Origin: a virus
Direction: 5' to 3' (one strand)
Length of the DNA: 39,272 bases
IMG/VR virus record: IMGVR_UViG_3300025815_000029
Location: 1-39,272 of that record
Positions 5,293 through 28,943 of this stretch are shown here, piece by piece. The translations under genes and the position numbers were made by a program. Positions within the stretch are counted from its first letter, which is position 1; the number at the start of each line of letters is the position of its first letter. Under the pieces are notes generated by a model. It did not search any database. It worked only from the letters and a program-made list of their open reading frames with translations, and was not told the DNA's origin.

Positions 5293-5871
5293 ATGAAATT
5301 TGCAGATCCTACCAAGAAATATCCGAACGACGGACACTTCCTTTGGTTATGGACCTATGTCAAAGACTTAAAATTACGTAGACTAATCGATTGCGGAGGA
5401 CATATTGGGAATTGGACCATAAACTGGTATGATAAATGTGATAAGATCGAAGCATTTGAACCAAATCTTGAAATACTTCCTAAATATAAAAATAATACAA
5501 AACACATAAAGAATTTGACCTTGCACGAAGTAGCACTGGGTGACAAACCAGGTACAGTCTCTATGGATTATGAGACGCACGAAGGCACGTACCATGTCAC
5601 CAAAAACAATGGTCCTATACAAATTAGAACTCTAGACAGTTATAACTTCCAGGACGTGGATGTAATTAAGATTGATGTAGAAGGATTCGAAGTGCCATTG
5701 CTAGAAGGTGCTAAAGAAACTATTCTAAGCAACAGGCCATGGATACAGATAGAGGCCAATAAGTCAGGTGAAAGGTATGGCAGGTCTAAAACTAAAATTC
5801 TAGAGAAATTAGCAAGTTTTGGCATGAAACGAGTGGCCAAAGAATGGCCTGATCAGATATGGAGATTCTAA
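5293..5871 (+). CDS. FkbM-family methyltransferase inserted in packaging operon
   Basis: An SAM-dependent O-methyltransferase of the FkbM type, usually acting on sugars or polyketides. In 192 aa it keeps motif I (LIDCGGHIGNWT, about 31-42), the acidic ribose-binding IEAFEPN (52-58) and the family hallmark VIKIDVEGFE (124-133). It begins two bases after the gp16 stop codon and has no recognised partner in terminase function. It is best explained as cargo riding in the packaging operon. Its substrate is unknown; the glycan island in this window is a plausible pathway for it. Confidence 0.85.
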   Translation: MKFADPTKKYPNDGHFLWLWTYVKDLKLRRLIDCGGHIGNWTINWYDKCDKIEAFEPNLEILPKYKNNTKHIKNLTLHEVALGDKPGTVSMDYETHEGTYHVTKNNGPIQIRTLDSYNFQDVDVIKIDVEGFEVPLLEGAKETILSNRPWIQIEANKSGERYGRSKTKILEKLASFGMKRVAKEWPDQIWRF

Positions 5872-14008: not shown

Positions 14009-14621
14009 TAGAATAATACTCACAGACGTAGACGGTGTACTGTTGGAATGGGAACACCATTTCACAAAATGGATGTTACAAAAGACACTGTTTGATGAGA
14101 GAGGTGCTAGATATCATCCTCACAGATTACTACCAGACAAACAGAACACATACGAGATGGCAGAACGTTTTGGTGTGACAAAAGACGAGATCAGAAAACA
14201 CATAAGAGAGTTCAACAGGAGTGCTTGGATGGGCACACAGAGACCTATGCCGGAGTCACAGACGTGGGTCAAACTGTTGGCGGCCGAGGGTTGGACCTTC
14301 ATACCTATCACATCTCAGACATCAGATATACCAGCACAACAGTTACGTAAGAGAAGATTGGGTGAACTGTTTGGCGAGCATGTGTTCACAAATTACCACA
14401 TACTTGGCACGGGTGCCGACAAAGACAGTGCATTAGCGGAGTTTCACGACACCGGACTGTATTGGGTCGAGGACAAGCCAAACAACGCTGTAGCCGGGCT
14501 CAAATACGGTTTAAAGCCTATATTAATAGACCACCCATACAATCAAGACCTACAACATCCTGATATTATACGTGTAAGTAATTGGCAAGACATACACCAA
14601 ATAGTCTCAGGAAGAAAATGA
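13992..14621 (+). CDS. HAD-superfamily phosphatase-like protein
   Basis: A 209-aa haloacid dehalogenase-fold protein. Motif I is LTDVDGVLLEW, with nucleophile D12 and acid/base D14. A motif II-like ITSQTSD follows near 97-103, and the motif IV-type acidic segment is WVEDKPNN. An inserted cap of about 70 helical residues lies between motifs I and II. Phosphatase or nucleotidase activity on a small phosphorylated compound is likely; the substrate cannot be read. It overlaps uvsY by 17 bases and the following glycosyltransferase by four (ATGA), linking the recombination operon to the glycan island. Confidence 0.75.
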   Translation: MPISNNRIILTDVDGVLLEWEHHFTKWMLQKTLFDERGARYHPHRLLPDKQNTYEMAERFGVTKDEIRKHIREFNRSAWMGTQRPMPESQTWVKLLAAEGWTFIPITSQTSDIPAQQLRKRRLGELFGEHVFTNYHILGTGADKDSALAEFHDTGLYWVEDKPNNAVAGLKYGLKPILIDHPYNQDLQHPDIIRVSNWQDIHQIVSGRK

Positions 14622-15292
14622 AAATTTACGTAGGGCACGACAGCAGAGAAGACATAGCATATCAAGTTTGCGAGCACTCAATCAAGCGTAGAGATCCATC
14701 TGCTGAAGTTATACCCCTCAAACAAAAACAGATGCGGGACCAAGGACTGTACACCAGGCCTGTGGACAAGTTGGCGTCAACGGAGTTCACGTTCACTAGG
14801 TTCTTCGTGCCATACATGAATGACTTCAAAGGCTGGGCGGTGTTCTGCGACTGTGATTTCCTTTGGAAGATACCAAGCCACGAACTTGTGAAATACTGTG
14901 ACGACTCGAAAGCAGTTGTCGTGGTGCAACACGACTACACTCCCAAAGAAACAACAAAAATGGACGGACAGGTTCAGACATCATATCCCAGGAAGAACTG
15001 GTCAAGCATGGTATTGTGGAACTGTGAACATCCAAAAAACAAAATACTCACACCAGAACTATTGAACGAAGAATCGCCAAAGTTCCTACACAGGTTCAGT
15101 TGGTTGGAAGACAATGAGATAGGATCATTACCCTTAGAATACAATTGGCTAGTAGGTTGGTACAAAGAACCAAGGGACGGCACACCAAAAGTATTACACT
15201 ACACGGAAGGTGGTCCGTGGTTCGATGGTTACCGAGATTGCGAATACGCCGATGACTGGAAGAAGGAATTGATCAATCTTTTCAGTGCATGA
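14618..15292 (+). CDS. GT-A glycosyltransferase-like protein
   Basis: A 224-aa nucleotide-diphospho-sugar transferase-like protein with a Rossmann start (MKIYVGHDSREDIAYQVCEH) and a metal-binding D-x-D in VFCDCDFLW (D78, D80). It has a late WFDGYRDCEYADDW segment. The start is ATG 14618, which overlaps the HAD stop (ATGA) and has AGGAAG upstream; an in-frame extension from 14582 lies within the HAD gene. It is the first gene of the island. Donor and acceptor sugars are unknown. Confidence 0.75.
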   Translation: MKIYVGHDSREDIAYQVCEHSIKRRDPSAEVIPLKQKQMRDQGLYTRPVDKLASTEFTFTRFFVPYMNDFKGWAVFCDCDFLWKIPSHELVKYCDDSKAVVVVQHDYTPKETTKMDGQVQTSYPRKNWSSMVLWNCEHPKNKILTPELLNEESPKFLHRFSWLEDNEIGSLPLEYNWLVGWYKEPRDGTPKVLHYTEGGPWFDGYRDCEYADDWKKELINLFSA

Positions 15293-15861
15293 TGCCCAAC
15301 GATTCAGAATATTGGAAATTATTCTATTCCAAAAACAGCAATGACAAACGTTTACTCGAACCATCTTTGTTCTGCAAATTCATTTTAGATCATTTCAAAA
15401 ATTCTAAAAATTTGAACATATTAGATGCAGGATGTGGCACTGGAAGAGATGCCATGGAACTTGCTAAGACACACAACGTTGTAGGAGTGGATTTGATACA
15501 ACACACAGATAACCAAAATTTTACTTTTGAAAAGGCAGATTTTTGTACATTCAATAAAGAAAATTTTGATGTGATATATTCACGATTCACATATCATACT
15601 ATAAGCAACGTTCAACAAGATATTTTTTTAGATAGTATAAAACATAAAACAATAATGTGTATGGAATTTAGAAGTGATAAAAGCCAGGATATTTCCTTAC
15701 ATTTTGGTAAAACACATTTCAGAAACTTTATAAATCTAGAACAGTTTAAAAACAAAATCAACAACAGATTCGAAATAATCTATTTGAAAGAAGATAAGGG
15801 GTTTGCACCGTTTGGTGAAGAAGATCCTATTTGTATAAGAACTATTTTAAGAAAGAAATGA
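15289..15861 (+). CDS. Class I SAM-dependent methyltransferase
   Basis: A 190-aa methyltransferase with motif I NILDAGCGTGRDAMELA (43-59), the acidic post-II residue in VVGVDL (64-69), and a motif IV-like FDVIYSRFTYHT. It resembles small-molecule methyltransferases of the UbiE/Methyltransf_11 type rather than DNA methylases, as there is no DPPY or PC motif. The start overlaps the previous stop (ATGATG; either ATG is possible). The gene is visibly AT-rich compared with the replication genes, which suggests separate acquisition. Confidence 0.78.
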   Translation: MMPNDSEYWKLFYSKNSNDKRLLEPSLFCKFILDHFKNSKNLNILDAGCGTGRDAMELAKTHNVVGVDLIQHTDNQNFTFEKADFCTFNKENFDVIYSRFTYHTISNVQQDIFLDSIKHKTIMCMEFRSDKSQDISLHFGKTHFRNFINLEQFKNKINNRFEIIYLKEDKGFAPFGEEDPICIRTILRKK

Positions 15862-16394
15862 CAGGAACACCAAAAACAAAAAAACAACTTAACAGTAACC
15901 TGCGATTAATTTGTACGAAATTAAATGAATACAAGATAAACAATTGGTTTATTGCTTACGGCACTTTACTAGGTATAGTCAGGGACGGTTCGTGTATAGA
16001 CGGTGACGACGACATAGATATTGTGATTGATGTCGCAGAAATACCAAAGGTAAAAGAATGTGTAAAATATATGATAGATAAAGAAGCATACGAAATGACA
16101 ATAGATAAGAAGGGTAAATTCATGCAAATTAGCAAAGAAGATTGCCAGTTAGATTTTTACTTTGCAGAAAATAATGGTACCAATTTTTTTGATCTGCATG
16201 AGAAAGTTACGTGGAGTGAATGTATAGATCCGGAGACAAATAAGATTCCGTTAATGGAGTGGAATGGCATCAAAATTAATGTCCCACACGAAAGAATTTT
16301 AAAATTACAAAGACGGTATGGTCCGGAATGGCAAAAAAGAATCAAGAAAAACGAACCTGGCGGGGAAGGATATAGAACCGTGCTTGTGTTATAG
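15858..16394 (+). CDS. LicD-family nucleotidyl/phosphocholine transferase-like
   Basis: A 178-aa protein of the LicD type, a nucleotidyltransferase-fold family that moves phosphocholine or similar groups onto glycans. The signature is FIAYGTLLGIVRDG (31-44) followed by the acidic cluster DGDDDIDIVID (48-58), with the metal-binding D-x-D. The C-terminus has IKINVPHERILKLQRRYG, also typical. The ATG at 15858 overlaps the preceding TGA; a TTG 27 bases earlier is less likely. It probably adds a phospho-substituent to the glycan built by its neighbours. Confidence 0.78.
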   Translation: MTGTPKTKKQLNSNLRLICTKLNEYKINNWFIAYGTLLGIVRDGSCIDGDDDIDIVIDVAEIPKVKECVKYMIDKEAYEMTIDKKGKFMQISKEDCQLDFYFAENNGTNFFDLHEKVTWSECIDPETNKIPLMEWNGIKINVPHERILKLQRRYGPEWQKRIKKNEPGGEGYRTVLVL

Positions 16395-16428
16395 GAAAAT
16401 ACAAAGTAATTATTGAAAGAATAAAATA

Positions 16429-17037
16429 ATGGAAGGAAAAAAATTTATTGATAAGTGTTTGAACTCTCCAGTATTGTTATCCCCATGGCCGCACCAAATA
16501 CTTGAGGATACTATAAGTCCTGAGATCTTTGCAAAACTAAAATTGCAGTGTGAAAAAAACTTGAATTTTAAAACAACAGAACTGATACACATACATCCAG
16601 ACAAGTTCAAAGATCACGGAATAGAGTTCTATGATGAAACATTCGATATCTGTAAACAACTCTTAGCCAGGATCAAAGACGTCCAAAACATCTATCCCTC
16701 ATACAGGGAATACAAAACACTAGGCATCAATGCACACATCAGCATTACACCTCCGTTGCCTTACAAGTTCTATGTGCACCAAGAAGGATTAGAAAAAACA
16801 TGGAGTTCAGTGACCTACATCACGCCGGATGAGAACATAGGGACCAAGATGTATAAGAAACAATCAGATACTTCGTGCGTCAAAGAGGCCAAATGGAAAC
16901 CTAACAGCACCTTTATATTTTGTGGTCAGCAAGGTAAGACATGGCACAGTTATGAAAGCAATCAACAATCCAACCGGATTACATTAAACCTTTTTGTGAT
17001 GAAGTATCGTGAGAAAAAATGTTTTTATAGTGAATGA
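16429..17037 (+). CDS. 2-oxoglutarate/Fe(II) oxygenase-like protein
   Basis: A 202-aa protein with the double-stranded beta-helix pattern of 2OG-Fe(II) dioxygenases. Candidate iron ligands are H117 and E119 (YVHQEG) with H173 (KTWHSYES), and the co-substrate Arg is R183 (NRITLNLF). Such enzymes are common in marine T4-like phages. Here it lies in the glycan island and may hydroxylate a sugar or peptide; the substrate is not evident. Its 3' end overlaps the opposing glycosyltransferase by 13 bases. Confidence 0.65.
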   Translation: MEGKKFIDKCLNSPVLLSPWPHQILEDTISPEIFAKLKLQCEKNLNFKTTELIHIHPDKFKDHGIEFYDETFDICKQLLARIKDVQNIYPSYREYKTLGINAHISITPPLPYKFYVHQEGLEKTWSSVTYITPDENIGTKMYKKQSDTSCVKEAKWKPNSTFIFCGQQGKTWHSYESNQQSNRITLNLFVMKYREKKCFYSE

Positions 17038-17726
17038 TCAAAAATCTCTTTTGCTATTCGTAACATGTCGTAATTAGATTTAAACTTTTGTTGTCCACTA
17101 GCATGTCCAAAATAACATTCTGTGCCATTTTTCTTGTTATATCTCCAATCCATTTGATCAACATCAACATTTGATTCAAGCATTGCGTATATTAATTGTT
17201 CGTTGTCATCACCATTTAAATTCTTGTAATCTAAAAACTTTTTCATTATCCCTACACAAGTTTTATTCAACATAAACACACCAGCATTAAATCTTTTCTT
17301 CTGCAGGATCGATGGTTCAAATTTTCCTAGGCAGGTATCCTTTGCTCTTTGCTTGTGATACGACAACGAATTCTTCCTCGCTATCCTGTCATACACAGGT
17401 TTGAAAGACACAGTTGAGGGATACTCTTTGAACACATCCGGTGCACCGGGCCACACAATGACGTCTGTGTCCAGATACAATATGTTGTCGTACTGTTGCC
17501 ACCATGTGTCATTGAAGAAGAGATCAAAACGTTCGAATGTTGGATGTATCCAATTGATCACAGGCTCGGTCATCAACTTGTAATCAGCACCTATACGTTT
17601 GGCATACTGTTCAACTGATGTGGTACTGTACCTGTAGAGTTCTTCATTGACTCCTATCTGATTGTAGGTAGGATCTGAATATTTGTCTACCGATACAAAA
17701 AACTGCACTACTAAATTCCTATTCAT
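17025..17726 (-). CDS. GT-A glycosyltransferase, paralogue of 20972-21727
   Basis: A 233-aa GT8-like transferase. The D-x-D motif is ILYLDTDVIVWP (D86, D88), preceded by HPTFERFDLFFNDTWW. Late motifs include RFNAGVFMLNK and NKKNGTECYFGHASG. It shares this whole pattern with the minus-strand gene at 20972-21727, so the two are diverged duplicates. It is the last of four minus-strand genes and overlaps the next by eight bases. The His-rich GHASG end probably contributes to nucleotide-sugar binding, as in GT8 enzymes. Confidence 0.8.
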   Translation of the reverse strand: MNRNLVVQFFVSVDKYSDPTYNQIGVNEELYRYSTTSVEQYAKRIGADYKLMTEPVINWIHPTFERFDLFFNDTWWQQYDNILYLDTDVIVWPGAPDVFKEYPSTVSFKPVYDRIARKNSLSYHKQRAKDTCLGKFEPSILQKKRFNAGVFMLNKTCVGIMKKFLDYKNLNGDDNEQLIYAMLESNVDVDQMDWRYNKKNGTECYFGHASGQQKFKSNYDMLRIAKEIFDHSL

Positions 17727-18417
17727 TTGTGAAAATATAATTGAACTCTTCTTCGTTACGTTTGTGTTGTGATTGTAATTTCAATCCAAGATCCTTTAAT
17801 TTTTGCACCATGTCAACATGCCTGTTATCTATCTCAACGAGCACACTTTTGCATTTCTGTATTGTGGCGAAAGCACCCTTCAGCACCCTGTCTTCGAATC
17901 CGTCTACGTCAATTTTTAGGTAGTCCGGTTGAGGCAATATACTTTTACCAACTAGAAAGTCCATGTGCATTTCCGTGCATCCATGATAGTAATCTCCGCG
18001 TTGACCGACTTTGTTGTCAGCAACCCCTTCGTGCATGTTCTTGACATTCATAGTGCTAAGGGAAATTTGATTGCTCAACGCCACGCAGTAGGCCTGACAT
18101 TTTTCAAGTTTGTTCAAATTGATGCTGTCCAATAAATTTTTATAACTTGCAGAGTGTGGCTCAAAAGCAAACACCGTGTTCTGCTTCATGACGGCACTGT
18201 ACAATGTGTATATGCCAATGTTGGCACCAACATCAAAGAACACACTGTCTTGTCCAAATTGATTGATCCATTTAATTGTTTCAGGCTCTTTTGTCAACAG
18301 TCTGTCCATTCTATTTTTAATATAGGTCTTGTGGCCTTTGACGTTTGCGAATTTTATTGTTTTATCTTTGATAGGGAAACTGAAACTGTCCGCGTCATAA
18401 CTTTTCAATTTTGGCAT
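17719..18417 (-). CDS. FkbM-family methyltransferase
   Basis: A 232-aa SAM-dependent methyltransferase. Motif I is VFFDVGANIGIYTLYSA (59-75), the acidic loop is VFAFEPHSAS, and the hallmark YLKIDVDGFEDRVLKGA follows. Start is ATG at 18417 on the minus strand, overlapping the upstream stop by one base (TAATG); an in-frame extension to 18510 falls inside the neighbour. It is different in length and sequence from the FkbM gene at 5293-5871, so they are separate acquisitions. It likely methylates a glycan hydroxyl. Confidence 0.87.
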   Translation of the reverse strand: MPKLKSYDADSFSFPIKDKTIKFANVKGHKTYIKNRMDRLLTKEPETIKWINQFGQDSVFFDVGANIGIYTLYSAVMKQNTVFAFEPHSASYKNLLDSINLNKLEKCQAYCVALSNQISLSTMNVKNMHEGVADNKVGQRGDYYHGCTEMHMDFLVGKSILPQPDYLKIDVDGFEDRVLKGAFATIQKCKSVLVEIDNRHVDMVQKLKDLGLKLQSQHKRNEEEFNYIFTNE

Positions 18418-19229
18418 TACAATATTCCTTTGTCCATTAATGTTTCTACCGCTGTGCCGTTCTCGAACTCCTCTGGTGTGAACTGTTGGTATGCCAGACT
18501 GTACAGCCATGGTTCAGGCCCTCCATAATACGGATTCTCAATGTCAGATAATTCAACATTGCCAACATCAACAGCAAAACTCATATTATCACAGAACACA
18601 GGTATGCCCTCACATATGGCCTCCACGGCCGCGATGCTACAACTTGTCACAACACACCACGCTTCCTTGAGGTCCTCGGATAGGGGTACCTTTGCCTCAC
18701 TTGGTCCTGATGTACCCCTGCCCCTAGGCTTGTGTCGAAGTTTGATAGGTCTGTCCGTGTATCTCTTAATCTGTTCTATTGTCTCGTTAGTCCAATTGGG
18801 TCTGTTCATGTATTGGTGTATGCCTGTGGAACTGGGACAAACCAAAACATGCTTACCGGCAAAGTTTGGTGCCTTTATCTTCATACCAAACTTTTCAAAT
18901 CTGTCTGCCTTGCAGTCCTTCAAGTAAGGAGCGTGTATCCTGTTTTTACATATGCGCCAATAGTGATTGTCTGGCTTTAGATTACTGTTGTCAAATCTAC
19001 CAAAGTAGGGTGTGTCCGTGAACCAGTAGTTGTGATTACGGGCATCTAACTTCTGCACCATCTCTCTGTTGTTGCCTACGAATCCCCAGAACATACTATT
19101 GCTGACTGGATCCTTTTCTACTGCGTTGTCTAGTTTGGTTATTTGATCGGGCCACGACTTTTCAACACCGTTGAACACTTCCCAGGCCTTGCTGTTCTTG
19201 TTATTAAATGGTGCGTAGATTGTTAGCAT
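18417..19229 (-). CDS. GT-B-like capsule-type glycosyltransferase, family copy A
   Basis: A 270-aa protein, one of four related proteins in the window. Shared elements are TDRPIKLRHKPRG, VTSCSIAAVEAICEGIPVFC, a D-V-x-N segment, DIENP, and the end pattern SLAYQQFTPEEFENGTA. The S/E...G(I/V)P(V/C/T)F block resembles the nucleotide-sugar site of KpsC/KpsS-like or CDP-glycerol transferase-like GT-B enzymes. The family relation is clear; the capsule-synthesis comparison is from memory and moderate. It overlaps the SGNH gene upstream by 26 bases. Confidence 0.6.
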   Translation of the reverse strand: MLTIYAPFNNKNSKAWEVFNGVEKSWPDQITKLDNAVEKDPVSNSMFWGFVGNNREMVQKLDARNHNYWFTDTPYFGRFDNSNLKPDNHYWRICKNRIHAPYLKDCKADRFEKFGMKIKAPNFAGKHVLVCPSSTGIHQYMNRPNWTNETIEQIKRYTDRPIKLRHKPRGRGTSGPSEAKVPLSEDLKEAWCVVTSCSIAAVEAICEGIPVFCDNMSFAVDVGNVELSDIENPYYGGPEPWLYSLAYQQFTPEEFENGTAVETLMDKGIL

Positions 19230-19869
19230 CTATAAATTCTTTCAGTTGATTTGCCCACTCTGTGTGCCCGTCTGTGGACGGATGGGGATCGTTTGGACTG
19301 ACTATCAAGTTTTTCTCAGTGATGTATTCCAAATGGCTGACCTCGGGATTGAAAAATCTTTTCATATCTATCGCTTTCTTGATAGTATCAAAGTCCTGAG
19401 AATTCCCATCAAATGAGTTTGGGAGTGCGTTGTACATCACATAAGGAATTCTTTTTCTTTCGAAGTAATTTTGTAGATCAAAGACATTGTCCAGGAACGT
19501 CATTATGGCATGATTTTCTATATCCCATCCTATGTTGCTTTTAATAAAACTGACATTGTCTAGCGTTTTCCATGTTCTCCAAGTGAGATCAGTACCAGGC
19601 ATTCTGCCTTTTTTCCAACCGTCGTTAGTGATATAGTCGTTACGATACGCACTAGACCAACCTATTACCGCAAAGGTATCTTGTGTACCAAACTTTTCAA
19701 AATAAGTCTTGGTGGAGAAACTGATCCTTGTATTTCCTCTACCACCCATGGCAAGATTTTCAAGTTCCAAGCCATATAGATCTGCCAGGTGTTTGGTTAC
19801 AAACGTGTTTACACCATCCTTTGGTCTAGGAGTAAGGAAACTACAACCGTTTGAAAATATTTTTGACAT
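19204..19869 (-). CDS. SGNH/GDSL-type hydrolase-like protein
   Basis: A 221-aa protein with the SGNH blocks. The nucleophile Ser is S10 in FSNGCSFLT, block II Gly is in MGGRGNTRIS (about 41-50), and the catalytic Asp/His pair lies in NDPHPSTDGHTEWA near 193-206. Such enzymes add or remove acyl groups on sugars. It is the first gene of the minus-strand operon and faces the GT61 gene across a 31-base promoter region. A second, shorter relative is encoded at 31748-32473. Confidence 0.72.
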   Translation of the reverse strand: MSKIFSNGCSFLTPRPKDGVNTFVTKHLADLYGLELENLAMGGRGNTRISFSTKTYFEKFGTQDTFAVIGWSSAYRNDYITNDGWKKGRMPGTDLTWRTWKTLDNVSFIKSNIGWDIENHAIMTFLDNVFDLQNYFERKRIPYVMYNALPNSFDGNSQDFDTIKKAIDMKRFFNPEVSHLEYITEKNLIVSPNDPHPSTDGHTEWANQLKEFIDANNLRTI

Positions 19870-19900
19870 ACAGTAATATACTACAGTATAATTATTGTAA
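19870..19900. promoter_or_regulatory. Divergent promoter with palindrome
   Basis: The 31-base gap between divergent genes contains TATAC-TACA-GTATA (19877-19890). On the plus strand TATAAT (19887-19892) ends 8 bases before the ATG at 19901. On the minus strand TATATT ends 5 bases before the ATG at 19869. Neither gene has room for a Shine-Dalgarno sequence, so both transcripts would be nearly leaderless. Confidence 0.5.
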
Positions 19901-20983
19901 ATGCAAACAGTTCAAAACATTAATGACATCAAGTACTTCACAGAGCAATTTGAAGTAATTGACCAAAGTTATCAATTCACCATTGACTGGAATTTGTATA
20001 ATATCAAATATACCTACTCAAGTTTACCAACTTTTGTAGGCGATTTCTCTAACTGTAGCGTAAACTCTTTGCCTGTCCTAATCACAGAAGACAGAAAGAT
20101 TATCACAAATCACGTATGGTCATTAATATCAAAATACAGAGATAAACCACACAAGGTACATGACATATTCACGGAATGGGGAGACAAAGTGGACATCGAC
20201 ATGCCACCGATCAAGCAACAATTTAATGGCACATGGAAATACGTATGGTTACCCATTGACCAATACAGTGCTGAAAATCCATGGCACATCTGGATAGATA
20301 TCGTGTCAAAGTTTAGACTGATCGAAAAACGTTGGAGCACAAATTTTGAGAAATATGTTTTTGTTTTATCAAACCCAAGCAAATATTTTGAGAAGGTATG
20401 TAAGGAATTTTTTCCTGACTTGAATTATGTTGTGATGCCAAAAGACGAAACTTGGAGGTTCAGCCACTTGATCGTACCCTCACTTAGCAATCATAAAGAC
20501 GGTATATTAACTCCTCACATGCCCCCATGGATAAGGCATCTTGGAAATCTTGTCAAAGACAAGGGTACTAAAGCACACAGGAAAATAGTAGTCACAAGGG
20601 AAAACGCACAGAACAGGAACATTCAAAACAAGGAACAAATGCTGATGGCACTCAAAGGTTGGGAAACTGTGGACCTAGATACCATGTCAATAAAAGAACA
20701 GGTACAAACTTTTGCCGAAGCCACACACATAGTATCACCACACGGTGCTGGACTTACAAATGTACTATGGTGTGAAGAGGGCACAAAGATCTATGAACTG
20801 ACACACGAAGCCTTTTTCGGCAAGAAAGTTTATCCGGTATTATCAAAGCACTTGGGATTGAAGCACACAGTATTACTATGTGATACAGTTCCACTCAAAG
20901 GACCAAAACCAAAAAATAAAAAATCAAAAGATATGGTAGATCTAAAAATAGATGTGCCAAAACTTATCGAGTTACTCGATTAG
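19901..20983 (+). CDS. Glycosyltransferase family 61 (DUF563) protein
   Basis: A 360-aa protein matching the GT61 pattern: VVTRENAQNRNIQNKEQM (230-247), then VDLDTMSIKEQVQTFAEA, then the hallmark IVSPHGAGLTNVLWCEEG (277-294) followed by KIYEL. GT61 enzymes transfer xylose, GlcNAc or other residues to glycans or proteins. No signal peptide or membrane segment is present, so it acts in the host cytosol. Its 3' end overlaps the opposing glycosyltransferase by 12 bases, within a pair of hairpins. Confidence 0.85.
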   Translation: MQTVQNINDIKYFTEQFEVIDQSYQFTIDWNLYNIKYTYSSLPTFVGDFSNCSVNSLPVLITEDRKIITNHVWSLISKYRDKPHKVHDIFTEWGDKVDIDMPPIKQQFNGTWKYVWLPIDQYSAENPWHIWIDIVSKFRLIEKRWSTNFEKYVFVLSNPSKYFEKVCKEFFPDLNYVVMPKDETWRFSHLIVPSLSNHKDGILTPHMPPWIRHLGNLVKDKGTKAHRKIVVTRENAQNRNIQNKEQMLMALKGWETVDLDTMSIKEQVQTFAEATHIVSPHGAGLTNVLWCEEGTKIYELTHEAFFGKKVYPVLSKHLGLKHTVLLCDTVPLKGPKPKNKKSKDMVDLKIDVPKLIELLD

Positions 20984-20998
20984 TCCTGACAGGTCAGG
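20966..20998. terminator. Tandem hairpins at convergent gene ends
   Basis: ATCGAG-TTA-CTCGAT (20966-20980) spans both stop codons, and CCTGA-CAGG-TCAGG (20985-20998) follows directly. Both are palindromic and could work on either strand. T-runs are short, so termination strength is uncertain. Confidence 0.5.
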
Positions 20999-21727
20999 TT
21001 TGACTTCGGGATACATTTTTTTCAACTTGCCCCAAATCTTTACTTGCCTTTTGTGTTTCTTTCCGCCTGCACAATGTAGGAAGTACACGTTGTCGTAGTC
21101 ATAACGTTCACCATTGTTTTTGTGATTGAATTTTTTATCCATGTCTAAGAGTGGCACATCGCTGTCGACTATACAGGAATTTAGGAACATACCATCATCG
21201 ATCCTATCATCTTTGATGTCTTTATACTTCTCTACCCAAGGCAACATAAATTCAGTATTGACCTTGTTCAATATCATCACGCCAGGCTGTACAAACCTTT
21301 TTGCTATCTGTTCGCCTGTGTAGTTGTCAGCCAAAGGATTTACACGTTGGTTGTGCTTGGCCCCTTCTGGTCCTGCGTTCCTAAACTTTGGATAATATGC
21401 TGTCTTTAATTTGTTGTCCTCATCAGGATACTTCTCAAATATATTTGGTGCGTGTGGTAATGCTATGACATCGCTGTCAACGTACATGATCTGATCATAG
21501 TCATCCCACCAACTCCTATCCGTCCACAGGTCAAATCTCTCCCAAGTAGGATGTTTGAACCCTAACTTTGGTTCGGTGATCCTGAGGTAATCCAAATTAA
21601 ATTTTTCGCAGTACAGTTTGAAACTGTGCCTGCTGTACTCCTCCATGGGACTGGGTTTGAGATTGTTAAACTCAGGTTGCGAATATTTTTGTATGTCTAT
21701 ATAATATTGAATAACCAAGTTTCTCAT
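20972..21727 (-). CDS. GT-A glycosyltransferase, paralogue of 17025-17726
   Basis: A 251-aa GT8-like transferase. HPTWERFDLWTDRSWWDDYD precedes the D-x-D motif IMYVDSDVIALP (D84, D86). The later FVQPGVMILNK and YFLHCAGGKKHKRQ supply the expected C-terminal His and basic residues. It aligns along its length with the 233-aa paralogue, differing by an insertion of about 20 residues after the D-x-D. It stands alone on the minus strand and starts 18 bases from the divergent gene, behind a TAAATA box. Confidence 0.8.
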   Translation of the reverse strand: MRNLVIQYYIDIQKYSQPEFNNLKPSPMEEYSRHSFKLYCEKFNLDYLRITEPKLGFKHPTWERFDLWTDRSWWDDYDQIMYVDSDVIALPHAPNIFEKYPDEDNKLKTAYYPKFRNAGPEGAKHNQRVNPLADNYTGEQIAKRFVQPGVMILNKVNTEFMLPWVEKYKDIKDDRIDDGMFLNSCIVDSDVPLLDMDKKFNHKNNGERYDYDNVYFLHCAGGKKHKRQVKIWGKLKKMYPEVKPDLSGLIE

Positions 21728-21734
21728 CGATAAC

Positions 21735-21741
21735 TATTTAC
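21735..21741 (-). promoter_or_regulatory. Late-promoter-like box in 18-base divergent gap
   Basis: Read on the minus strand the box is GTAAATA, ending 7 bases before the ATG at 21727. It occupies part of the whole gap to the plus-strand gene at 21746. The plus-strand gene has no box of its own in this gap. Confidence 0.5.
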
Positions 21742-21745
21742 GATT

Positions 21746-22558
21746 ATGTTTTATTGTGTACGAACAGAAAGAGCCAACACCGAAAAATACATTGAATCAA
21801 TAGCAAGAGGCGTATCAGGCAAAATTGTCAATTACCAAGACGCAATGAACACTGACTGTACAAAAGTCGCCTTCATGGGAGTTCTCAGAGGCACAAACAT
21901 TGTGTACAACTGGGCCAAAGAAAACAAAAAAGATTTCTACTACATAGATAGACCTTACTGGGGCGAGAGCAGGGGGACACCATATTGGATGAGATGTGTG
22001 AAAAACGAACACGTAAAGACATCACACGAGACAAGACCCGATGATCGATACAAGAAATATTACAAAGGTGATCCTATACATCCTTACCACAAAAACGGAA
22101 AATATGTTTTAGTTGTGCCGCCAAGTCATAGCATGGCGTTACACTTCAATGCTCCAAACTGGTTAGAGCAAACCATGGCAACACTGAAAGCAAACACAGA
22201 CAGAGAAATTATAGTAAGAGAGAAACCTTACAATCCAAAAAGTTATCTAGACGAGCAAGGAAGGATGTTGCCGGGACCTAGTGAAAACAAACAACCCGAG
22301 AAACCTTTTGAATGGGATCAGGTACACGCTGTGGTTACTTTCAACAGTTCGATAACAATAAAAGCACTGCACAACGGTGTGCCTTGCTTCAGCAATTTTG
22401 AAAACCCGTGCGGGCAGATATGTGAATCAGATTTCAGTAAAATAGAAACTCCAATTTATGCTGACAGAGAGCCTGTGTTCTACAGCCTCGCTTATGGTCA
22501 GTTCACTCAGGAAGAGTTTCGTAACGGTTGGGCATTAAGTATACTAGATGGACGTTGA
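21746..22558 (+). CDS. GT-B-like capsule-type glycosyltransferase, family copy B
   Basis: A 270-aa member of the four-copy family. It has TDREIIVREKPYNP, HAVVTFNSSITIKALHNGVP, a Cys-containing CFSNFENPCGQICESDF segment where other copies have D-V-x-N, then KIETPIYADREPVFYSLAYG and QFTQEEFRNG. The acidic residue after SSI is replaced by Lys (TIKAL against AVEAI), which could affect catalysis. It starts a nine-gene plus-strand run and overlaps the next copy by 11 bases. Confidence 0.6.
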   Translation: MFYCVRTERANTEKYIESIARGVSGKIVNYQDAMNTDCTKVAFMGVLRGTNIVYNWAKENKKDFYYIDRPYWGESRGTPYWMRCVKNEHVKTSHETRPDDRYKKYYKGDPIHPYHKNGKYVLVVPPSHSMALHFNAPNWLEQTMATLKANTDREIIVREKPYNPKSYLDEQGRMLPGPSENKQPEKPFEWDQVHAVVTFNSSITIKALHNGVPCFSNFENPCGQICESDFSKIETPIYADREPVFYSLAYGQFTQEEFRNGWALSILDGR

Positions 22559-23531
22559 GATATTCAGAAGAACAGTAAAAGACCGTAGACGTGGTGCGAG
22601 TTATGAACTACTGCAACACATGGCCGAAGGAATAAGGGCATGTGGTGATAATCCTATAATGGTAAACGAACACAAGACAGGAGAGTGGACGGACAACGAA
22701 ATGGAGCCAACAGCAAAAATAGGTTGTATGTTTGGGTACGGTGGATCAAATCAGATGCACCACACAAAAGGTCGTAGAAGAGACCTTGTAGAGCGTGCCA
22801 AGAAAAAAGGCATTCATATTATCACATTTGACGGTGGAATACTTTCAAGTTTTGGAAATACAATAACACATCCTAAACATCACTGGCGTGTGAGTTTGTA
22901 TTCGCCAATGAACAACGGCAACTTCCTAAGTGACAACTCACCACCTGATAGATGGGAGATGATGAAGAACTTATGGGATATAAAATACGAACCATGGAGG
23001 AAGTCAAATCAGGAAGACCCAATATTGTTTGTGTTGCAACCAAAAGACAACTGGAGTATGAACAATTTAGATCCTGTTGAGTGGTTCCACAGTGTGTATG
23101 AAAAGATTAGACCCGCAACAGATAGACCGTTTTTGATACGCCCACACCCTAATCACATGGCACACATAGAAGAACGTATCAAAGAATTTCCCGAAGAATG
23201 CAAAGTTATAATAGGACAAAAATTCTTCAGCGGTGACGAGAAAAAATATTACAGATTCAATTTCCAGGAAGCAATCGCAAATTGTCATGCAGTCGTGACG
23301 CACAATAGTACTGCCAGCATTGACAGTTGTGTGAGAGGAATACCAACATTCGTCACATCTGATTTGGCAATTTGTTGGGACGTTGCAAACAAGGATCTTA
23401 ATAACATAGAGACTCCTGAGTATCCCGAAAGAGACCAATGGGTGCATGACATTGGGTACAAGCAATGGACGGAAAAAGAAATAAGGGATGGCACAGTGTT
23501 CAAAAGATTCAAAGAGAAGTTAGGATTATAA
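22548..23531 (+). CDS. GT-B-like capsule-type glycosyltransferase, family copy C
   Basis: A 327-aa member of the family, the longest copy. Motifs are TDRPFLIRPHPNHM, CHAVVTHNSTASIDSCVRGI followed by PTFVTSD, then CWDVANKDLNNIETPEYPER and GYKQWTEKEIRDGT. The RPHP and H-N-S-T-A-S-x-D elements are the clearest match in the window to capsule or CDP-glycerol transferase-type GT-B proteins. It ends by one-base overlap with the asparagine synthetase gene. Confidence 0.62.
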   Translation: MDVEIFRRTVKDRRRGASYELLQHMAEGIRACGDNPIMVNEHKTGEWTDNEMEPTAKIGCMFGYGGSNQMHHTKGRRRDLVERAKKKGIHIITFDGGILSSFGNTITHPKHHWRVSLYSPMNNGNFLSDNSPPDRWEMMKNLWDIKYEPWRKSNQEDPILFVLQPKDNWSMNNLDPVEWFHSVYEKIRPATDRPFLIRPHPNHMAHIEERIKEFPEECKVIIGQKFFSGDEKKYYRFNFQEAIANCHAVVTHNSTASIDSCVRGIPTFVTSDLAICWDVANKDLNNIETPEYPERDQWVHDIGYKQWTEKEIRDGTVFKRFKEKLGL

Positions 23532-25297
23532 TGTGTGGCATATACGGCATAACTGCAAGTGATCAAAAATTTATTAATGATTACATGCATCTCTGTAAAC
23601 ACAGAGGTCCAGACGGTGGGCAAAAAATTGAAATCGTAAACAAGAAATCAGGCAACGCAGTGACGTTGGGTCACAATCTCCTAAGTATAATGGCCGAGCC
23701 AGGAAAATCACAACAGCCATGGAGGACACCAAAGTACAACTATCTGGTATACAATGGCGAGATATTCAATTATTATGAACTCAAAGAAAAATATAAAGAG
23801 TTCACGGACACCACAGGTTGCGACACCGAACTACTTGCTTGGGGACTAGATAAATTTGGATTATCGTTTATTGACGAAATAGATTCTATGCATGGCTTTG
23901 CTTACTATGAAGTTGACAAAGATAGAATAACACTGAGCAGAGATCATGCAGGAGTCAAACCTGTGTACTATGCAGAAATCAGCGAGGGACTAGTATTTGG
24001 CTCTGAAATAAAAGGAATGCTAGACAAAGTTCCTAATAGCAGAAAAATAGATAATCTTGCTGTCAGTTTTATGGCAAGAACTGGGATCAATGCTTTACGT
24101 AATACTTTCTTTACAGGAATTAAAAAATTACTAGCGGGCGAAACAATAGTGTATGACATAGCCTCTAAAAAAATTATACAAACACACAGAGTCCACATTA
24201 GACCCACGAGTAACAAAAAATTCAATGAGGAAGAATTCAGAAAAAAAGTCAAAAAGACAGTAGAAATGTGTTCTATTGGTAGGAGAAAGATTGGTGTATT
24301 TTTGAGCGGCGGTCTGGATTCTAGTATAGTAGCATATGAGCTCAAACAATTAAAAGGCGAGGCTAATACATTCACAAACAGGATGGAGCCCAATGTACAA
24401 GCAGACGAAGACTATAACAGTGATGCTAATTGTGCCAGCATACTTGCACAACAGAATAATTTCAATCACAAGGAAGTTGTTATAACACCCGAGACGTTTA
24501 TAGATAATTGGGACGACAGCATATACTATATGGAGCAACCTGTATACAATCCCAGTATGTCAATGTACTGTGCGACAAACAAATTTTTATCAGATAATGA
24601 AGTTATTGTTACAATGGCAGGTGACATGGGAGACGAGATACTTGCAGGATATCCAAAATATTGGAAAATGAAAAATCAACCTTGGCTAGAAAAACAAATA
24701 GGAAAACAAAAAATAGAAAGTTGGGATGATGTATTAATGCTCTGGTTAAAAAGAATCAAACGTCCGTTGCAGTTAACTGAGAATCCCGTAAGTGACGAAA
24801 AACTGATAGACGAATTCCGGAAGTGCTATTCAGGAGAATTATGGAATAGTGAAGACCCGATTGGATCATACATGGCGTTAGATTGTGTTGCACAAGTCCC
24901 GGAAGAGATGTTCAGCAGAAATGACAAGTACGGGATGGCATACAGCATGGAAGGACGTTTTCCGTTAGCCACTAAAATGTTCATGCAATATTGTATGAGT
25001 ATGCACACTGATCTTAAACTAGGTCCTGATAAAAGTGATACAAAGTCTTTTATTAAGAAAGCGTATCTAGGTAAGTTACCAAACGAGATTATTAACAAAA
25101 TGAAAACCGGATGGACTGTTCCTGTTGGACACTGGCTTTCCACTAGTGCTAGTGCCAAATTAAATAATTTCTACAAAGGCAGGACAGGTGAAAACTCTAA
25201 ACTGGATGTGGTAAAGGCCAGTCAAAAGGCCGGAAAGGCATTGATCCCAGCGTGGATGGTCAGTGACTGGATTAAAAAATACAGCATGACTAGGTAG
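23531..25297 (+). CDS. asnB: Asparagine synthetase-type glutamine amidotransferase
   Basis: A 588-aa two-domain enzyme. The class II glutaminase domain begins with the obligatory MCGIYG (C2 becomes the N-terminal nucleophile), HRGPDG at 24-29 and YNGEIFNYYEL at 74-84. The synthetase domain has the pyrophosphate loop SGGLDSS at 259-265. ATG 23531 is the start because C2 must follow Met; an in-frame extension would bury it. It could make asparagine, or, given its place, amidate a sugar acid, as related enzymes in O-antigen clusters do. Length and motifs appear complete. Confidence 0.9.
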   Translation: MCGIYGITASDQKFINDYMHLCKHRGPDGGQKIEIVNKKSGNAVTLGHNLLSIMAEPGKSQQPWRTPKYNYLVYNGEIFNYYELKEKYKEFTDTTGCDTELLAWGLDKFGLSFIDEIDSMHGFAYYEVDKDRITLSRDHAGVKPVYYAEISEGLVFGSEIKGMLDKVPNSRKIDNLAVSFMARTGINALRNTFFTGIKKLLAGETIVYDIASKKIIQTHRVHIRPTSNKKFNEEEFRKKVKKTVEMCSIGRRKIGVFLSGGLDSSIVAYELKQLKGEANTFTNRMEPNVQADEDYNSDANCASILAQQNNFNHKEVVITPETFIDNWDDSIYYMEQPVYNPSMSMYCATNKFLSDNEVIVTMAGDMGDEILAGYPKYWKMKNQPWLEKQIGKQKIESWDDVLMLWLKRIKRPLQLTENPVSDEKLIDEFRKCYSGELWNSEDPIGSYMALDCVAQVPEEMFSRNDKYGMAYSMEGRFPLATKMFMQYCMSMHTDLKLGPDKSDTKSFIKKAYLGKLPNEIINKMKTGWTVPVGHWLSTSASAKLNNFYKGRTGENSKLDVVKASQKAGKALIPAWMVSDWIKKYSMTR

Positions 25298-25298
25298 A

Positions 25299-25305
25299 TT
25301 AAATA
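25299..25305 (+). promoter_or_regulatory. Late-promoter-like box TTAAATA
   Basis: TTAAATA lies just after the stop codon of the amidotransferase gene and ends 8 bases before the ATG at 25314. No Shine-Dalgarno sequence is present. Confidence 0.55.
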
Positions 25306-25313
25306 TCAATATT

Positions 25314-26216
25314 ATGAAAATAAAAGTCATCACATCGTACAAACCCGGAACATGGGAATCATATGCCAAGAAAGGAATAGAGTCAATGGCTGAACAATTT
25401 CCAAAAGAAGTTGACATAGTTGTGTATGCTGAGGAACCTAAACCCCATTGTGATCATGAAAGAATAACATGGATCGATCTAAACAGTGCAGAACCGGAAC
25501 TGTTCAAATTCAAAAATAAACACAAAGATGATCCCGTGGCAAACGGAGAATTACAAGAAATCGAAGGCGGTGTGAGACGCCCTGCCGAACTACAAACCAA
25601 AGGAGGCATGGACAAGAACAAAGGCTCTTATCTGTGGGCCGCTGTGAGATTTTCAAACAAAGTGTTCTGTGTTGTGAATGGCGTGCGTAATTCAAAAGAT
25701 TATGATTACGTGGTGTGGATAGATGCAGACACATTCACATTTAGGCCTGTACCTTTAGATTTTTTTAAAAAATTATTGCCCACAGACACCATGGTAACAT
25801 ACCTAGGCAGAGAGAATCCAAAATTGAACGACGGTGGAAAATATCCTGAATGTGGATTCGTTGGATACAACATGAAACATCCTGAGATACTAAATTTTGT
25901 AGATGAATGGGAACAACTGTACGTGACCGACGAAGTGTTCAATCTATTGGAATGGCATGACAGTTACGTGTTCTGGCATCTCACTAAGAAGTACAGGAAA
26001 GAAAAAAACATCACAGTCAACGACATAGGATACTGGATAGGTGTGAAAGGACATCATGTGTTCGTCAACAGTGAACTTGGATTGTACATGGACCACATGA
26101 AGGGAAAGCGTAAGAAACACGGAACCAGTGGTAGGAACGATCTACGTGCCAACCCAAACGCACCAGCAGATATAATGTCTGTTGACTATTGGAAAAAGGT
26201 ACCACCATCAATATGA
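25314..26216 (+). CDS. GT-A glycosyltransferase-like protein
   Basis: A 300-aa protein with the GT-A start MKIKVITSYKPGTWESYAKK and a D-x-D motif in YVVWIDADTFTFRPVP (D137, D139). Later segments are PECGFVGYNMKHPEILNFV and LLEWHDSYVFWHLTKKY. It differs from the GT8-like paralogues in having no ERFDL block. It ends in a four-base ATGA overlap with the next gene. The sugar donor is unknown. Confidence 0.75.
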   Translation: MKIKVITSYKPGTWESYAKKGIESMAEQFPKEVDIVVYAEEPKPHCDHERITWIDLNSAEPELFKFKNKHKDDPVANGELQEIEGGVRRPAELQTKGGMDKNKGSYLWAAVRFSNKVFCVVNGVRNSKDYDYVVWIDADTFTFRPVPLDFFKKLLPTDTMVTYLGRENPKLNDGGKYPECGFVGYNMKHPEILNFVDEWEQLYVTDEVFNLLEWHDSYVFWHLTKKYRKEKNITVNDIGYWIGVKGHHVFVNSELGLYMDHMKGKRKKHGTSGRNDLRANPNAPADIMSVDYWKKVPPSI

Positions 26217-27085
26217 AGATAGAAGCATGGCCCAAACACGGTCCACTGAACAGCAAAACGATCTTTAAAAAATTTATAGAGTCAATACAGAAGGCCGGTG
26301 ACGAAGTAATAGTCAACAGGGAAACCAACGCGGACGTGGCAGTGATATGGAGTGTGCTGTGGAGAGGCCGGATGCAAAGTTATAAAAGTGTGTGGGATCG
26401 ATACAGGAAACAAGGAAAACCAGTCATAGTGATAGAAGTGGGCGGATTGCGTAGGAATCTCAGTTTCAAGATTGGAATAAATGGCATCAACAGAGATGCC
26501 GACTTTGCCAATGAAAAGTTTGACGAAAAACGTTGGCCTTTGTTCAAGCACGAACTAAGACCATGGAATCCCACAGGTGACCTCATTGTGATATGCGGAC
26601 AACATGATGCATCAGAACAGTGGAAGGGACTGCCAAAGATGTCACAATGGATTGAACAACAGATAAAAGAAATTCGCAAGTACACCACAAGGCCCATACT
26701 AGTGAGACCTCATCCTAGAAACGTAATTACATTTGATGAGGACAAATTTAAGAATGTCAAGGTGAGATTACCAAAGAGAGATTATAGGACATATGATGAC
26801 ACAGATTTCAAAGTCACACTGGAAAGAACATGGGCTGTGATCAATCATTCCAGTAACCCGGCTATGGAAGCAGTGATAAAAGGTATACCTGTGTTCGTAT
26901 CAGAATCCAGCCTGTGCCACGATGTCGGGAACATCAAATTAATGGACATCAACACACCGGCCATGCCCAACAGGCTGACCTGGGCCAACAAACTGGCATA
27001 CACGGAATGGTTCGAGGACGAGATCGAAAAGGGACTGCCATGGGCTAGAATAAAAGCAAGACTTGAGGAGAAATATCTAAGATGA
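26213..27085 (+). CDS. GT-B-like capsule-type glycosyltransferase, family copy D
   Basis: A 290-aa member of the four-copy family. Motifs are TTRPILVRPHPRN, WAVINHSSNPAMEAVIKGIP followed by VFVSES, then CHDVGNIKLMDINTP and LAYTEWFEDEIEKG. ATG 26213 overlaps the preceding stop; an upstream in-frame ATG at 26189 lies within the neighbour and is less likely. Copies A and D share E-A-(I/V)-x-x-G-I-P-V-F and D-V-G-N and look closest to each other; B is the most divergent. Confidence 0.6.
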   Translation: MKIEAWPKHGPLNSKTIFKKFIESIQKAGDEVIVNRETNADVAVIWSVLWRGRMQSYKSVWDRYRKQGKPVIVIEVGGLRRNLSFKIGINGINRDADFANEKFDEKRWPLFKHELRPWNPTGDLIVICGQHDASEQWKGLPKMSQWIEQQIKEIRKYTTRPILVRPHPRNVITFDEDKFKNVKVRLPKRDYRTYDDTDFKVTLERTWAVINHSSNPAMEAVIKGIPVFVSESSLCHDVGNIKLMDINTPAMPNRLTWANKLAYTEWFEDEIEKGLPWARIKARLEEKYLR

Positions 27086-27681
27086 ACCATAAACCGGATA
27101 TCACATCAATAGATAATTTAAAGTATATGTGGGAACTTTGTAGTCACCATTGGCAATCAACATGGGCAGATTATCAAAATCTATTTGAAGGGAAAACATG
27201 TGTTGACATAGGAATATGGAAAGGGTTGTTGAATGCTAAGGCAGAGAAACAGTTAAATTGCAAAACAAAAATAGGGGTGGAGCCCAGTTTCACACATCGT
27301 GCGGATTGTAAAAAAATCAATCCTCATACCAAACTTTACCCTTCTATAGATGATTTACCAGATGGTATATTCACGGACATCATACTGTTGCACGGAGTGA
27401 TTTGGCTGATGGACAACTGGACACAAGAAATAAAAACTTTATTATCAAAGGTCAATTGCAAACACGTACATATTCGCAGTCCAAATCATGATACATATCC
27501 GATAAAAATGGAAAATGAACCCGATGACTATAGAAATTTTACCAAAAAAAAAATGAAATACTATAATGGTCCAACAATAAACGATATTGTTGAATTTTTT
27601 AGTACAGAAAATTATAGTGTAATAGATCGAAAGGAAACAAATGTAAATAGCACGATCGTGGTGTTTGAAAAAAAAATATGA
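27082..27681 (+). CDS. Putative SAM-dependent methyltransferase, AT-rich
   Basis: A 199-aa protein with a motif I-like TCVDIGIWKGLLNAKAEK (39-56), an acidic IGVEPS strand end, and FTDIILLHGVIWLMDNW as the motif IV region, as in class I methyltransferases. The glycine loop is unusual (GIWKG in place of GxGxG), so activity is uncertain. Codon use is AT-rich with long A runs. It overlaps both neighbours by four bases. Confidence 0.55.
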   Translation: MNHKPDITSIDNLKYMWELCSHHWQSTWADYQNLFEGKTCVDIGIWKGLLNAKAEKQLNCKTKIGVEPSFTHRADCKKINPHTKLYPSIDDLPDGIFTDIILLHGVIWLMDNWTQEIKTLLSKVNCKHVHIRSPNHDTYPIKMENEPDDYRNFTKKKMKYYNGPTINDIVEFFSTENYSVIDRKETNVNSTIVVFEKKI

Positions 27682-28424
27682 AAACTATAAACATCGGCAA
27701 AAAAGGAATTGAACCTATCCAATGGGAAAAATACAAGGGCGAAGACGTATGCGTGAATACTACAATCAAGCAAGGCAAACGTTTCCGAGACATCCGATTT
27801 TATGAAGACAAAGTCAAAGCGGTGCCTCGAGGCAACGCTTATGTTATAGGCAATGGTCCTTCACGTAAGGAATTTGATCTTACAAAACTAAAGGCCACTG
27901 GACAGACTTATGGGTGCAATGCACTTTATAGGGATTTCATGCCGGACTTCATATTCTCTGTGGACACAAAGATGTCAATGCAGATGGTGGAGGACGAAGT
28001 GGGTTTGAAGACCGTACACTACGGACCAGCACTGGAAGTAAACAGGAAACAGAGCAAGGGCATGATACATCTCATACCACACAACCCACACTGGATATCG
28101 GGCAACGCCGCTTTCTGGACTGCGGGCGTACATGGACACAAAAACATCTACCTGATAGGATTTGATTTCAGAGAGTACGGCAAAGGAGAACTAAACAACA
28201 TATATCAAGGAACAGATTGTTATGGTGAACGTAACGATGACAAAATATTTGAAGGATGGTTGAAACAGTTCAGAGACATGCTGAAGATGAGACCTTATGT
28301 TAACTACACAATAGTTCATGACAATCCACCCGAATACCTTAATCATCTACAGACAGGCACGGACTTAGGCAACAGTCGACTTATAACTTACGCTGAATTT
28401 GAAAAGGAATTAACACCTAGTTAG
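27678..28424 (+). CDS. DUF115/GT42-like protein
   Basis: A 248-aa protein with AYVIGNGPSRKEFDL (54-68), QTYGCNALYRDFMPDFIFSV (76-95), SGNAAFWTAGVHGHKNIYLI and GFDFREYG (161-168). The G-N-G-P-S, C-N-x-x-Y and G-F-D elements are shared by bacterial sialyltransferases of family GT42 and by MAF/DUF115 proteins linked to flagellin glycosylation. I cannot separate these two options by eye. Its 3' end meets the SprT gene in a palindrome. It is the last gene of the glycan island. Confidence 0.65.
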   Translation: MKTINIGKKGIEPIQWEKYKGEDVCVNTTIKQGKRFRDIRFYEDKVKAVPRGNAYVIGNGPSRKEFDLTKLKATGQTYGCNALYRDFMPDFIFSVDTKMSMQMVEDEVGLKTVHYGPALEVNRKQSKGMIHLIPHNPHWISGNAAFWTAGVHGHKNIYLIGFDFREYGKGELNNIYQGTDCYGERNDDKIFEGWLKQFRDMLKMRPYVNYTIVHDNPPEYLNHLQTGTDLGNSRLITYAEFEKELTPS

Positions 28425-28889: not shown

Positions 28890-28943
28890 GGTTGACTATA
28901 TTACCAATTATGCTATAATATACTAATAATTACCTAAAATATC
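28890..28943. promoter_or_regulatory. Divergent promoter region
   Basis: The 54-base gap is very AT-rich. On the plus strand TATAAT (28914-28919) and CTAAAATAT just before the ATG at 28944 are visible. On the minus strand TAATAT ends 8 bases before the SprT ATG. No Shine-Dalgarno sequence is seen on either side. Confidence 0.45.

Follow-up and report, generated by a model that had tools for sequence, protein, structure and literature searches.

A glycosyltransferase-rich island with conserved ends and an exchanged inner cassette at one site in a marine jumbo phage lineage

What does a jumbo phage gain from a block of seventeen glycosyltransferase-like and sugar-tailoring enzymes set between its recombination and replication genes, and what do their products decorate? 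The question is raised by a 39,272-base IMG/VR fragment (IMGVR_UViG_3300025815_000029; the whole stretch is called the window here) of an uncultured marine jumbo phage, a distant relative of PA5oct. Its genes run in the order tail sheath, tail tube, head closure and terminase; single-strand binding protein and UvsX; the island (positions 14618–28424); and SprT-like protein, UvsW, primase and DnaB-type helicase. Terminase identity is 55% with Pseudomonas jumbo phage PA5oct and 47% with Sinorhizobium phage Phosso, and gene sharing links the lineage to phages of several alphaproteobacteria, one gammaproteobacterium and cyanobacteria. A tRNA search of the window found none. The island encodes ten glycosyltransferase (GT)-like proteins (GTa, two GT8-like paralogues, GT61, four GT-B paralogues, GTA2 and a DUF115/GT42-like protein) and seven tailoring enzymes (LicD, three methyltransferases, AsnB, an SGNH-like and a 2-oxoglutarate (2OG)-oxygenase-like protein). 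This bears out the gene inventory of an earlier note on the same DNA, the open reading frames (ORFs) lying where it had placed them (Table 1).

Because 33/33 viral contigs picked by uvsW alone carry the island with at least three GTs (6 kb or more upstream of uvsW being required) and 31 of the 37 contigs picked by uvsX carry at least two island GTs, we conclude that the island marks a marine lineage and stands at one site, between uvsX and uvsW, in nearly all sampled members. In two of the six uvsX-picked exceptions, L073 and L079, the gene after uvsX lies about 1.3 kb from uvsW with no GTs between. The island is missing at this site in PA5oct, where 28 bases separate uvsW from the preceding homologue of 13547, the gene that stands upstream of the island; in Phosso the distance is 2.8 kb and includes no GTs. 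The whole genomes of both phages yielded no GT-B homologues, and a DNA-level search of isolated phages with positions 14600–22590 gave no match. A profile scan of genome contigs for the GT-B family returned four contigs from metagenome-assembled genomes (MAGs), all with further genes of this phage group, so no bacterial source of the family was found. Contigs L257–L260 belong to this phage group or a relative and were binned as Pelagibacter, Rickettsiales, Verrucomicrobia and Pacearchaeota MAGs, which thus contain phage sequence.

Across related phages, this lineage-wide island of fixed site combines conserved ends with a variable middle. Close relatives are highly identical to the window in the outer genes (GTa, GTB1, GTB4 and DUF115) and low in the middle; L108, for example, has 94% identity in DUF115 but 38% in GTB2 and 48% in GTA2. 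L134 (DUF115 84%, GTB2 93%, GTA2 95%) and L148 (DUF115 74%, GTB2 90%) display the opposite pattern. Pairwise gene distances were compared by Spearman-Mantel correlation over up to 77 loci. Those of DUF115 track GTB4, GTB1, the gene at 28944 and uvsW (0.64–0.76), and those of GTB2, GTB3 and GTA2 track one another (0.73–0.78). Since the inner genes agree among themselves and hardly with DUF115 or uvsW (rho 0.05–0.32; DUF115–GTA2 0.11, uvsW–GTA2 0.05), GTB2-GTB3-GTA2 is exchanged as one unit, like a serotype cassette, whereas the outer genes follow the phage phylogeny. MT1, LicD, MT3, the GT8-like genes and AsnB are variably present among relatives, in which the variants include guanosine diphosphate (GDP)-mannose 4,6-dehydratase (27 loci), 2OG oxygenases (49 loci), sulfotransferase (16 loci) and FkbM methyltransferases.

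Median ratios of nonsynonymous to synonymous substitution rates (dN/dS) are 0.025–0.069 for every island gene tested, with 0.028 for uvsW and 0.080 for uvsX; such values denote strong purifying selection on these island genes. Host-derived stuffer or passenger DNA, an idea considered earlier for the lipopolysaccharide (LPS) gene clusters of cyanophages (PMC3037559), would suit the variable content and the accessory genes of low guanine-plus-cytosine (GC) content. It is largely refuted by these medians, which are similar to those of uvsW and uvsX, and is also opposed by the retention of the island in all uvsW-anchored relatives and by its conserved promoters, so that we give it hardly any credence.

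These genes very probably form a cytosolic glycan-building locus. The earlier note had argued for cytosolic action from a lack of export genes, and both points find support. A hydropathy scan revealed no strong transmembrane segment in any window ORF, and no membrane enzyme that would initiate a glycan was seen; because the window is a fragment, it cannot by itself speak for the whole genome, and the relatives were therefore searched for export genes. PF01943 flippase was found in 0/19 related records, which are fragments and include a 203-kb and an 87-kb contig, and in 13/14 control genomes. The hydropathy scan of these two larger contigs gave one many-helix protein in the former and none in the latter. 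That protein (L245 11614–13092; G001 71614–73092) is, judging from its sequence, a TctA-like tripartite transporter membrane protein. Nucleotide-sugar synthesis genes were also sought in the related records: cytidine monophosphate (CMP)-sugar synthetase PF02348 occurs in 0/19 and sugar nucleotidyltransferase PF00483 in 1/19, absences that are provisional because the genomes are incomplete, and epimerase-family or GDP-mannose dehydratase genes occur in some relatives only. The simplest reading is that the sugar donors come from the host.

In cyanophage S-SCSM2R, KdsA and KdsB, which synthesize 3-deoxy-D-manno-oct-2-ulosonic acid (Kdo), are encoded near a GTa homologue, two 2OG oxygenases and an amidinotransferase (L268 11111–12532). 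A firm Kdo donor suggested by this arrangement was dropped: the neighbouring proteins are not GTB homologues, and the jumbo relatives have no CMP-sugar synthetase in the records searched.

Some phage GTs are known to modify DNA, and the island adjoins replication genes and contains a 2OG-oxygenase-like gene, as might be expected if DNA glycosylation or hypermodification shielded the phage genome from restriction. We consider this very unlikely. A thymidylate synthase-like or hydroxymethylase homologue (PF00303) was found in 0/19 of the fragmentary related records, TET-type enzymes having had no separate search; ten GTs with LicD, AsnB and SGNH are more than such a role needs, and the 2OG oxygenase is accessory.

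The earlier note had also likened the DUF115 protein to GT42 enzymes, a resemblance that both profile and structure searches recover. Its model (predicted local distance difference test, pLDDT, 83.5) is closest to the GT42 sialyltransferase CstII, with a Foldseek probability of 1.0 and a template-modelling (TM) score of only 0.41, and the GT42-like fold is accompanied by a GNGPS motif within the N-terminal IGNGPSRKEFD, in which G58–R63 are invariant in 29 relatives. The protein thus shares an NGPS-type motif and a Foldseek-detected fold with Maf/DUF115 flagellin glycosyltransferases and CstII. It differs from them as a single-domain phage protein of 248 amino acids, in which the Maf domain PF01973 stays below cut-off (18.9 bits versus 34.6 needed). 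Pelagibacter phage HTVC008M has a cluster in which DUF115 homologues are joined by a carbamoyltransferase and 2OG oxygenases; downstream of it lie curli genes, annotated csgF, csgG and csgB-like (L265 7562–9557).

The four GT-B paralogues have weak DUF6716 matches or none in Pfam and are united by one profile at E < 1e-80, all four being seed rows. A PDB sequence search with this profile found no match, and structure prediction was therefore used. For GTB4, the one of the four paralogues whose model carries the modified GT-B fold assignment, the top 25 Foldseek matches are all WbbB, KpsC or KrkA, retaining beta-Kdo transferases (E 3.5e-9 to 7e-6, TM score 0.43–0.58). In such enzymes (K/R)XHP binds the CMP phosphate (PMC12887879, from which the motifs were taken). 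Among relatives, this motif is present in 68/68 GTB3 and 75/75 GTB4 sequences, 3/36 GTB2 and 0/64 GTB1, the last having RxKP throughout; the SS/ST motif is retained in GTB3 and GTB4.

Promoters were called as motif matches. Sigma70-type matches are about as numerous in the left half of the window as chance would predict. The mid-island sigma70 promoter is kept at three mismatches or fewer ahead of GT61 in 24/26 relatives and, on the other strand, ahead of SGNH in 34/38; the primase has a sigma70-type promoter in 53/53. A T4-late-like [AT]TAAATA lies just upstream of the starts of virion genes: TerL (55/57; TAAATA in 57/57), the gene at 35648 (60/60) and that at 8993 (5/5). TAAATA also precedes GTA2, where in some relatives it may overlap the end of the upstream coding sequence. 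These motifs suggest two phases of transcription, an early one that starts mid-island and a late one at GTA2-GTB4-DUF115. With early- and late-type promoters both present, expression timing alone leaves the target undecided.

We tentatively, and by a narrow margin, favour glycosylation of virion tail proteins over modification of a host envelope precursor, because Caulobacter phages have an equivalent module behind their tail genes and because GTA2-GTB4-DUF115 is preceded by a late-type motif that it has in common with virion genes. In Caulobacter phage CcrBL9, genes for an annotated sialyltransferase, two GTBs, a GTa and a methyltransferase stand directly after tail/tail-fibre genes and before the endolysin; Pelagibacter phage Mosig carries GTA2, GTa, GTB, sulfotransferase, GTB and GT genes in a row. 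These mini-clusters resemble the island in their GTa and GT-B homologues, in GTA2 (Mosig) or the annotated sialyltransferase (CcrBL9), and in a methyltransferase or sulfotransferase. They differ in comprising about six genes rather than seventeen, in the tail genes adjoining that of CcrBL9, and in their unrelated genome backbones. Maf enzymes add N-acetylneuraminic acid or Kdo to Ser/Thr of flagellin, as cited in PMC7591256.

In the scheme we favour, the island enzymes would work in the cytosol of the infected cell. The GTs would use host nucleotide sugars, among which the DUF115/GT42-like and GT-B enzymes would plausibly take CMP-Kdo or a different CMP-ulosonate, and would assemble a short oligosaccharide, which AsnB, the methyltransferases, LicD and the oxygenase (sulfotransferase in relatives) would then decorate. 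This oligosaccharide would most likely grow on Ser/Thr residues in tail or fibre proteins of the virion, its common part made by the outer genes and its variable part set by the exchanged inner cassette and an accessory slot. In its fullest form, a serotype-like phage locus by which the jumbo lineage coats its tail proteins from host CMP-ulosonate (Kdo-type) donors through a new GT-B family and swaps the inner cassette to change the coat, the scheme is unlikely to hold in every part. A relative, G004, encodes several long tail-fibre-like paralogues (L273 4574–15583) with 20–27% Ser/Thr (25–27% in the three longest), which are candidate glycan acceptors.

Several observations weigh against this scheme. 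The His of the CMP-phosphate motif is missing in GTB1 and most GTB2, and no GTB has the catalytic QXXXD nucleophile at the matching place as judged by motif order (GTB4 has GQHxxS and GTB3 LQPxDN), so the donors are uncertain. These two traits, together with the lack of detectable similarity to PDB sequences, also separate the family from GT99 WbbB, GT107 KpsC and GT140 KrkA, which it resembles in the predicted GTB4 fold and in the (K/R)XHP and SS/ST motifs of GTB3 and GTB4; it has a predicted Kdo-transferase-like fold, yet is not filed as a member of GT99, GT107 or GT140. The Caulobacter link amounts to 24–34% identity, and the CcrBL9 sialyltransferase gene is unmatched by the DUF115 profile. 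Conserved sigma70-type (early) promoters in the middle of the island suggest expression ahead of the virion proteins, and the allele exchange of the inner cassette resembles that of surface-antigen loci. Of the reading in the earlier note, the cytosolic action and the DUF115/GT42 likeness are supported, while the protein target is not established and draws evidence both ways.

The early promoters and the serotype-like exchange, along with GDP-mannose 4,6-dehydratase in the variants, would fit remodelling of the host envelope. Here the enzymes would lengthen or alter the LPS core or some other lipid-linked precursor at the cytosolic face early in infection, host exporters (MsbA or an O-unit flippase) would carry the product out, and the changed surface would block superinfecting phages or grazers. 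We hold this to be hardly less likely than a virion target. LPS core sugars are added to lipid A in the cytosol, and the host's MsbA then exports the product, so a phage export gene would be unnecessary and the missing flippase does not separate a virion from a host target. The GTB fold resembles that of the Kdo transferases of O-antigen and capsule synthesis, a porin gene on a phage contig adjoins the GTB/SGNH cluster of relative G008, and a host-surface role was proposed earlier for the LPS genes of P-SSM2 (PMC2984593). Envelope remodelling is opposed by the place of the equivalent module within the tail gene block of a Caulobacter phage and by the late-type promoter ahead of GTA2-GTB4-DUF115. 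No ligase or lipid-carrier enzyme was noticed, and the GTs have no membrane anchors, a weak argument since LPS GTs are often peripheral.

The porin of G008 (L270 11733–12668; PF00267) has a signal-like N terminus and lies beside GTB and SGNH genes, near five tRNA genes; it possibly reflects outer-membrane remodelling by the phage. L270 7171–16788 forms a second GTB/SGNH/methyltransferase cluster, with four more radical SAM genes adjoining. Ribosomal RNA was suspected at the left end of L270, but Rfam did not confirm it. The window itself encodes a radical SAM protein between primase and helicase (37471–38379), with many matches to SPASM-type maturases.

This kind of locus is already known: GT-rich jumbo phages (moraphages, PMC12619734) and the cyanophage LPS clusters precede the island. 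Moraphages are aquatic jumbo phages with several GT families as core genes; they form a separate, Bacteroidota-associated lineage, for which no fixed island or cassette exchange was noticed in PMC12619734. The LPS gene clusters of cyanophages P-SSM2, S-SSM7 and S-SM2 contain many GT and sugar-tailoring genes of unproven function (PMC3037559, PMC2984593). They are likewise large clusters in marine T4-like phages; they differ, as described, in lying near hli03/phoH and in being present in few phages, whereas the island has a fixed uvsX-uvsW site, two classes of promoter, and conserved ends around an inner cassette that is exchanged separately. Bacterial O-antigen serotype loci (Wzx/Wzy or ABC type) also combine conserved ends with exchanged middle genes, but the island is phage-borne and no flippase was found in the window or its relatives.

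Several assignments in Table 1 are weak by Pfam alone and were strengthened by paralogy and structure; the 2OG-oxygenase-like protein has no match in Pfam or NCBIfam. GTa is 50% identical to GT24 of S-SCSM2R, 47% to a GT of Mosig and 34% to gp524 of CcrBL9, its relatives being annotated as GT24 or nucleotide-diphospho-sugar transferase. Elsewhere in the window, an FkbM-like methyltransferase (5293–5871; phrog_8156), of a family also present in the island, lies within the head/tail gene block, and a second SGNH-like protein of low GC (0.32) follows uvsW (31748–32473; 5/241 loci).

Table 1. Genes and promoters of the island, with positions in the window; accessory gene frequencies are counted over 241 loci.
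Feature	Position	Strand	Evidence
GTa, GT-A type glycosyltransferase; conserved left end	14618..15292	+	phrog_28018 E 1e-57
MT1, class I methyltransferase; accessory, low GC (0.30)	15289..15861	+	Pfam PF13489 E 8e-9; 1/241 loci
LicD-type phospho-sugar/choline transferase domain; accessory	15861..16394	+	PF04991 E 3e-8; 1/241 loci
2OG-Fe(II) oxygenase-like; accessory	16429..17037	+	BLASTP E 6e-16, 27% identity to S-SCSM2R proteins annotated 2OG oxygenase
GT8-like glycosyltransferase, paralogue of 20972	17025..17726	-	phrog_28746 E 8e-27; PF01501 E 0.002, below cut-off; S-CAM7 homologue
FkbM methyltransferase	17719..18510	-	PF05050 E 1e-13
GTB1, GT-B of Kdo-transferase-like group; RxKP replaces RxHP	18417..19229	-	GT-B profile E 6e-82 (one of its seed rows); motif counts
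SGNH/GDSL-like hydrolase	19204..19869	-	PF19547 DUF6071 E 4e-4, below cut-off; GDS-like N terminus read from sequence
Perfect sigma70 promoter TTGACA-18-TATAAT in divergent SGNH/GT61 gap	19863..19892	+	12/12 match, only one in window
GT61 glycosyltransferase	19901..20983	+	PF04577 E 3e-21
GT8-like glycosyltransferase, second copy	20972..21727	-	phrog_28746 E 5e-17
GTB2, GT-B; inner exchangeable cassette	21746..22558	+	GT-B profile E 2e-81 (one of its seed rows); allele behaviour
GTB3, GT-B with RPHP motif; inner cassette	22548..23531	+	GT-B profile E 4e-93 (one of its seed rows)
AsnB-type glutamine amidotransferase; in part of relatives	23531..25297	+	PF00733 E 6e-46, PF13537 E 7e-22; TIGR01536 above cut-off
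Late-type promoter motif TTAAATAT before GTA2	25298..25313	+	TAAATA at most 30 nt from the start of GTA2 (35/51 relatives)
GTA2, GT-A type glycosyltransferase; inner cassette	25314..26216	+	DxD-like sequence; 36% homologue in Mosig GT cluster; bimodal alleles
GTB4, GT-B with predicted beta-Kdo transferase fold; conserved right end	26213..27085	+	AlphaFold pLDDT 93.5; Foldseek
MT3, methyltransferase-like; accessory	27082..27681	+	PF13489 E 0.012, weak; 4/241 loci
DUF115/GT42-like transferase (CstII-like); conserved right end	27678..28424	+	hmmsearch to CstII E 0.002; Foldseek 1ro7 E 1.3e-5
Extended sigma70 promoter TTGACT-16-TATAAT, driving 28944-uvsW; right island border	28892..28919	+	38/38 relatives

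Marine phage "LPS clusters" have long been known without a function and were even thought to be possible stuffer DNA (PMC3037559). The population-scale data place such a cluster at one site in nearly all sampled relatives and show it to be strongly constrained by purifying selection and to enclose an exchanged inner cassette in a conserved framework; they also add a phage GT-B family with a predicted Kdo-transferase-like fold that does not have the known catalytic nucleophile. The old question of function is now testable in cultured phages that carry small versions of the module, Pelagibacter phage Mosig and Caulobacter phage CcrBL9.

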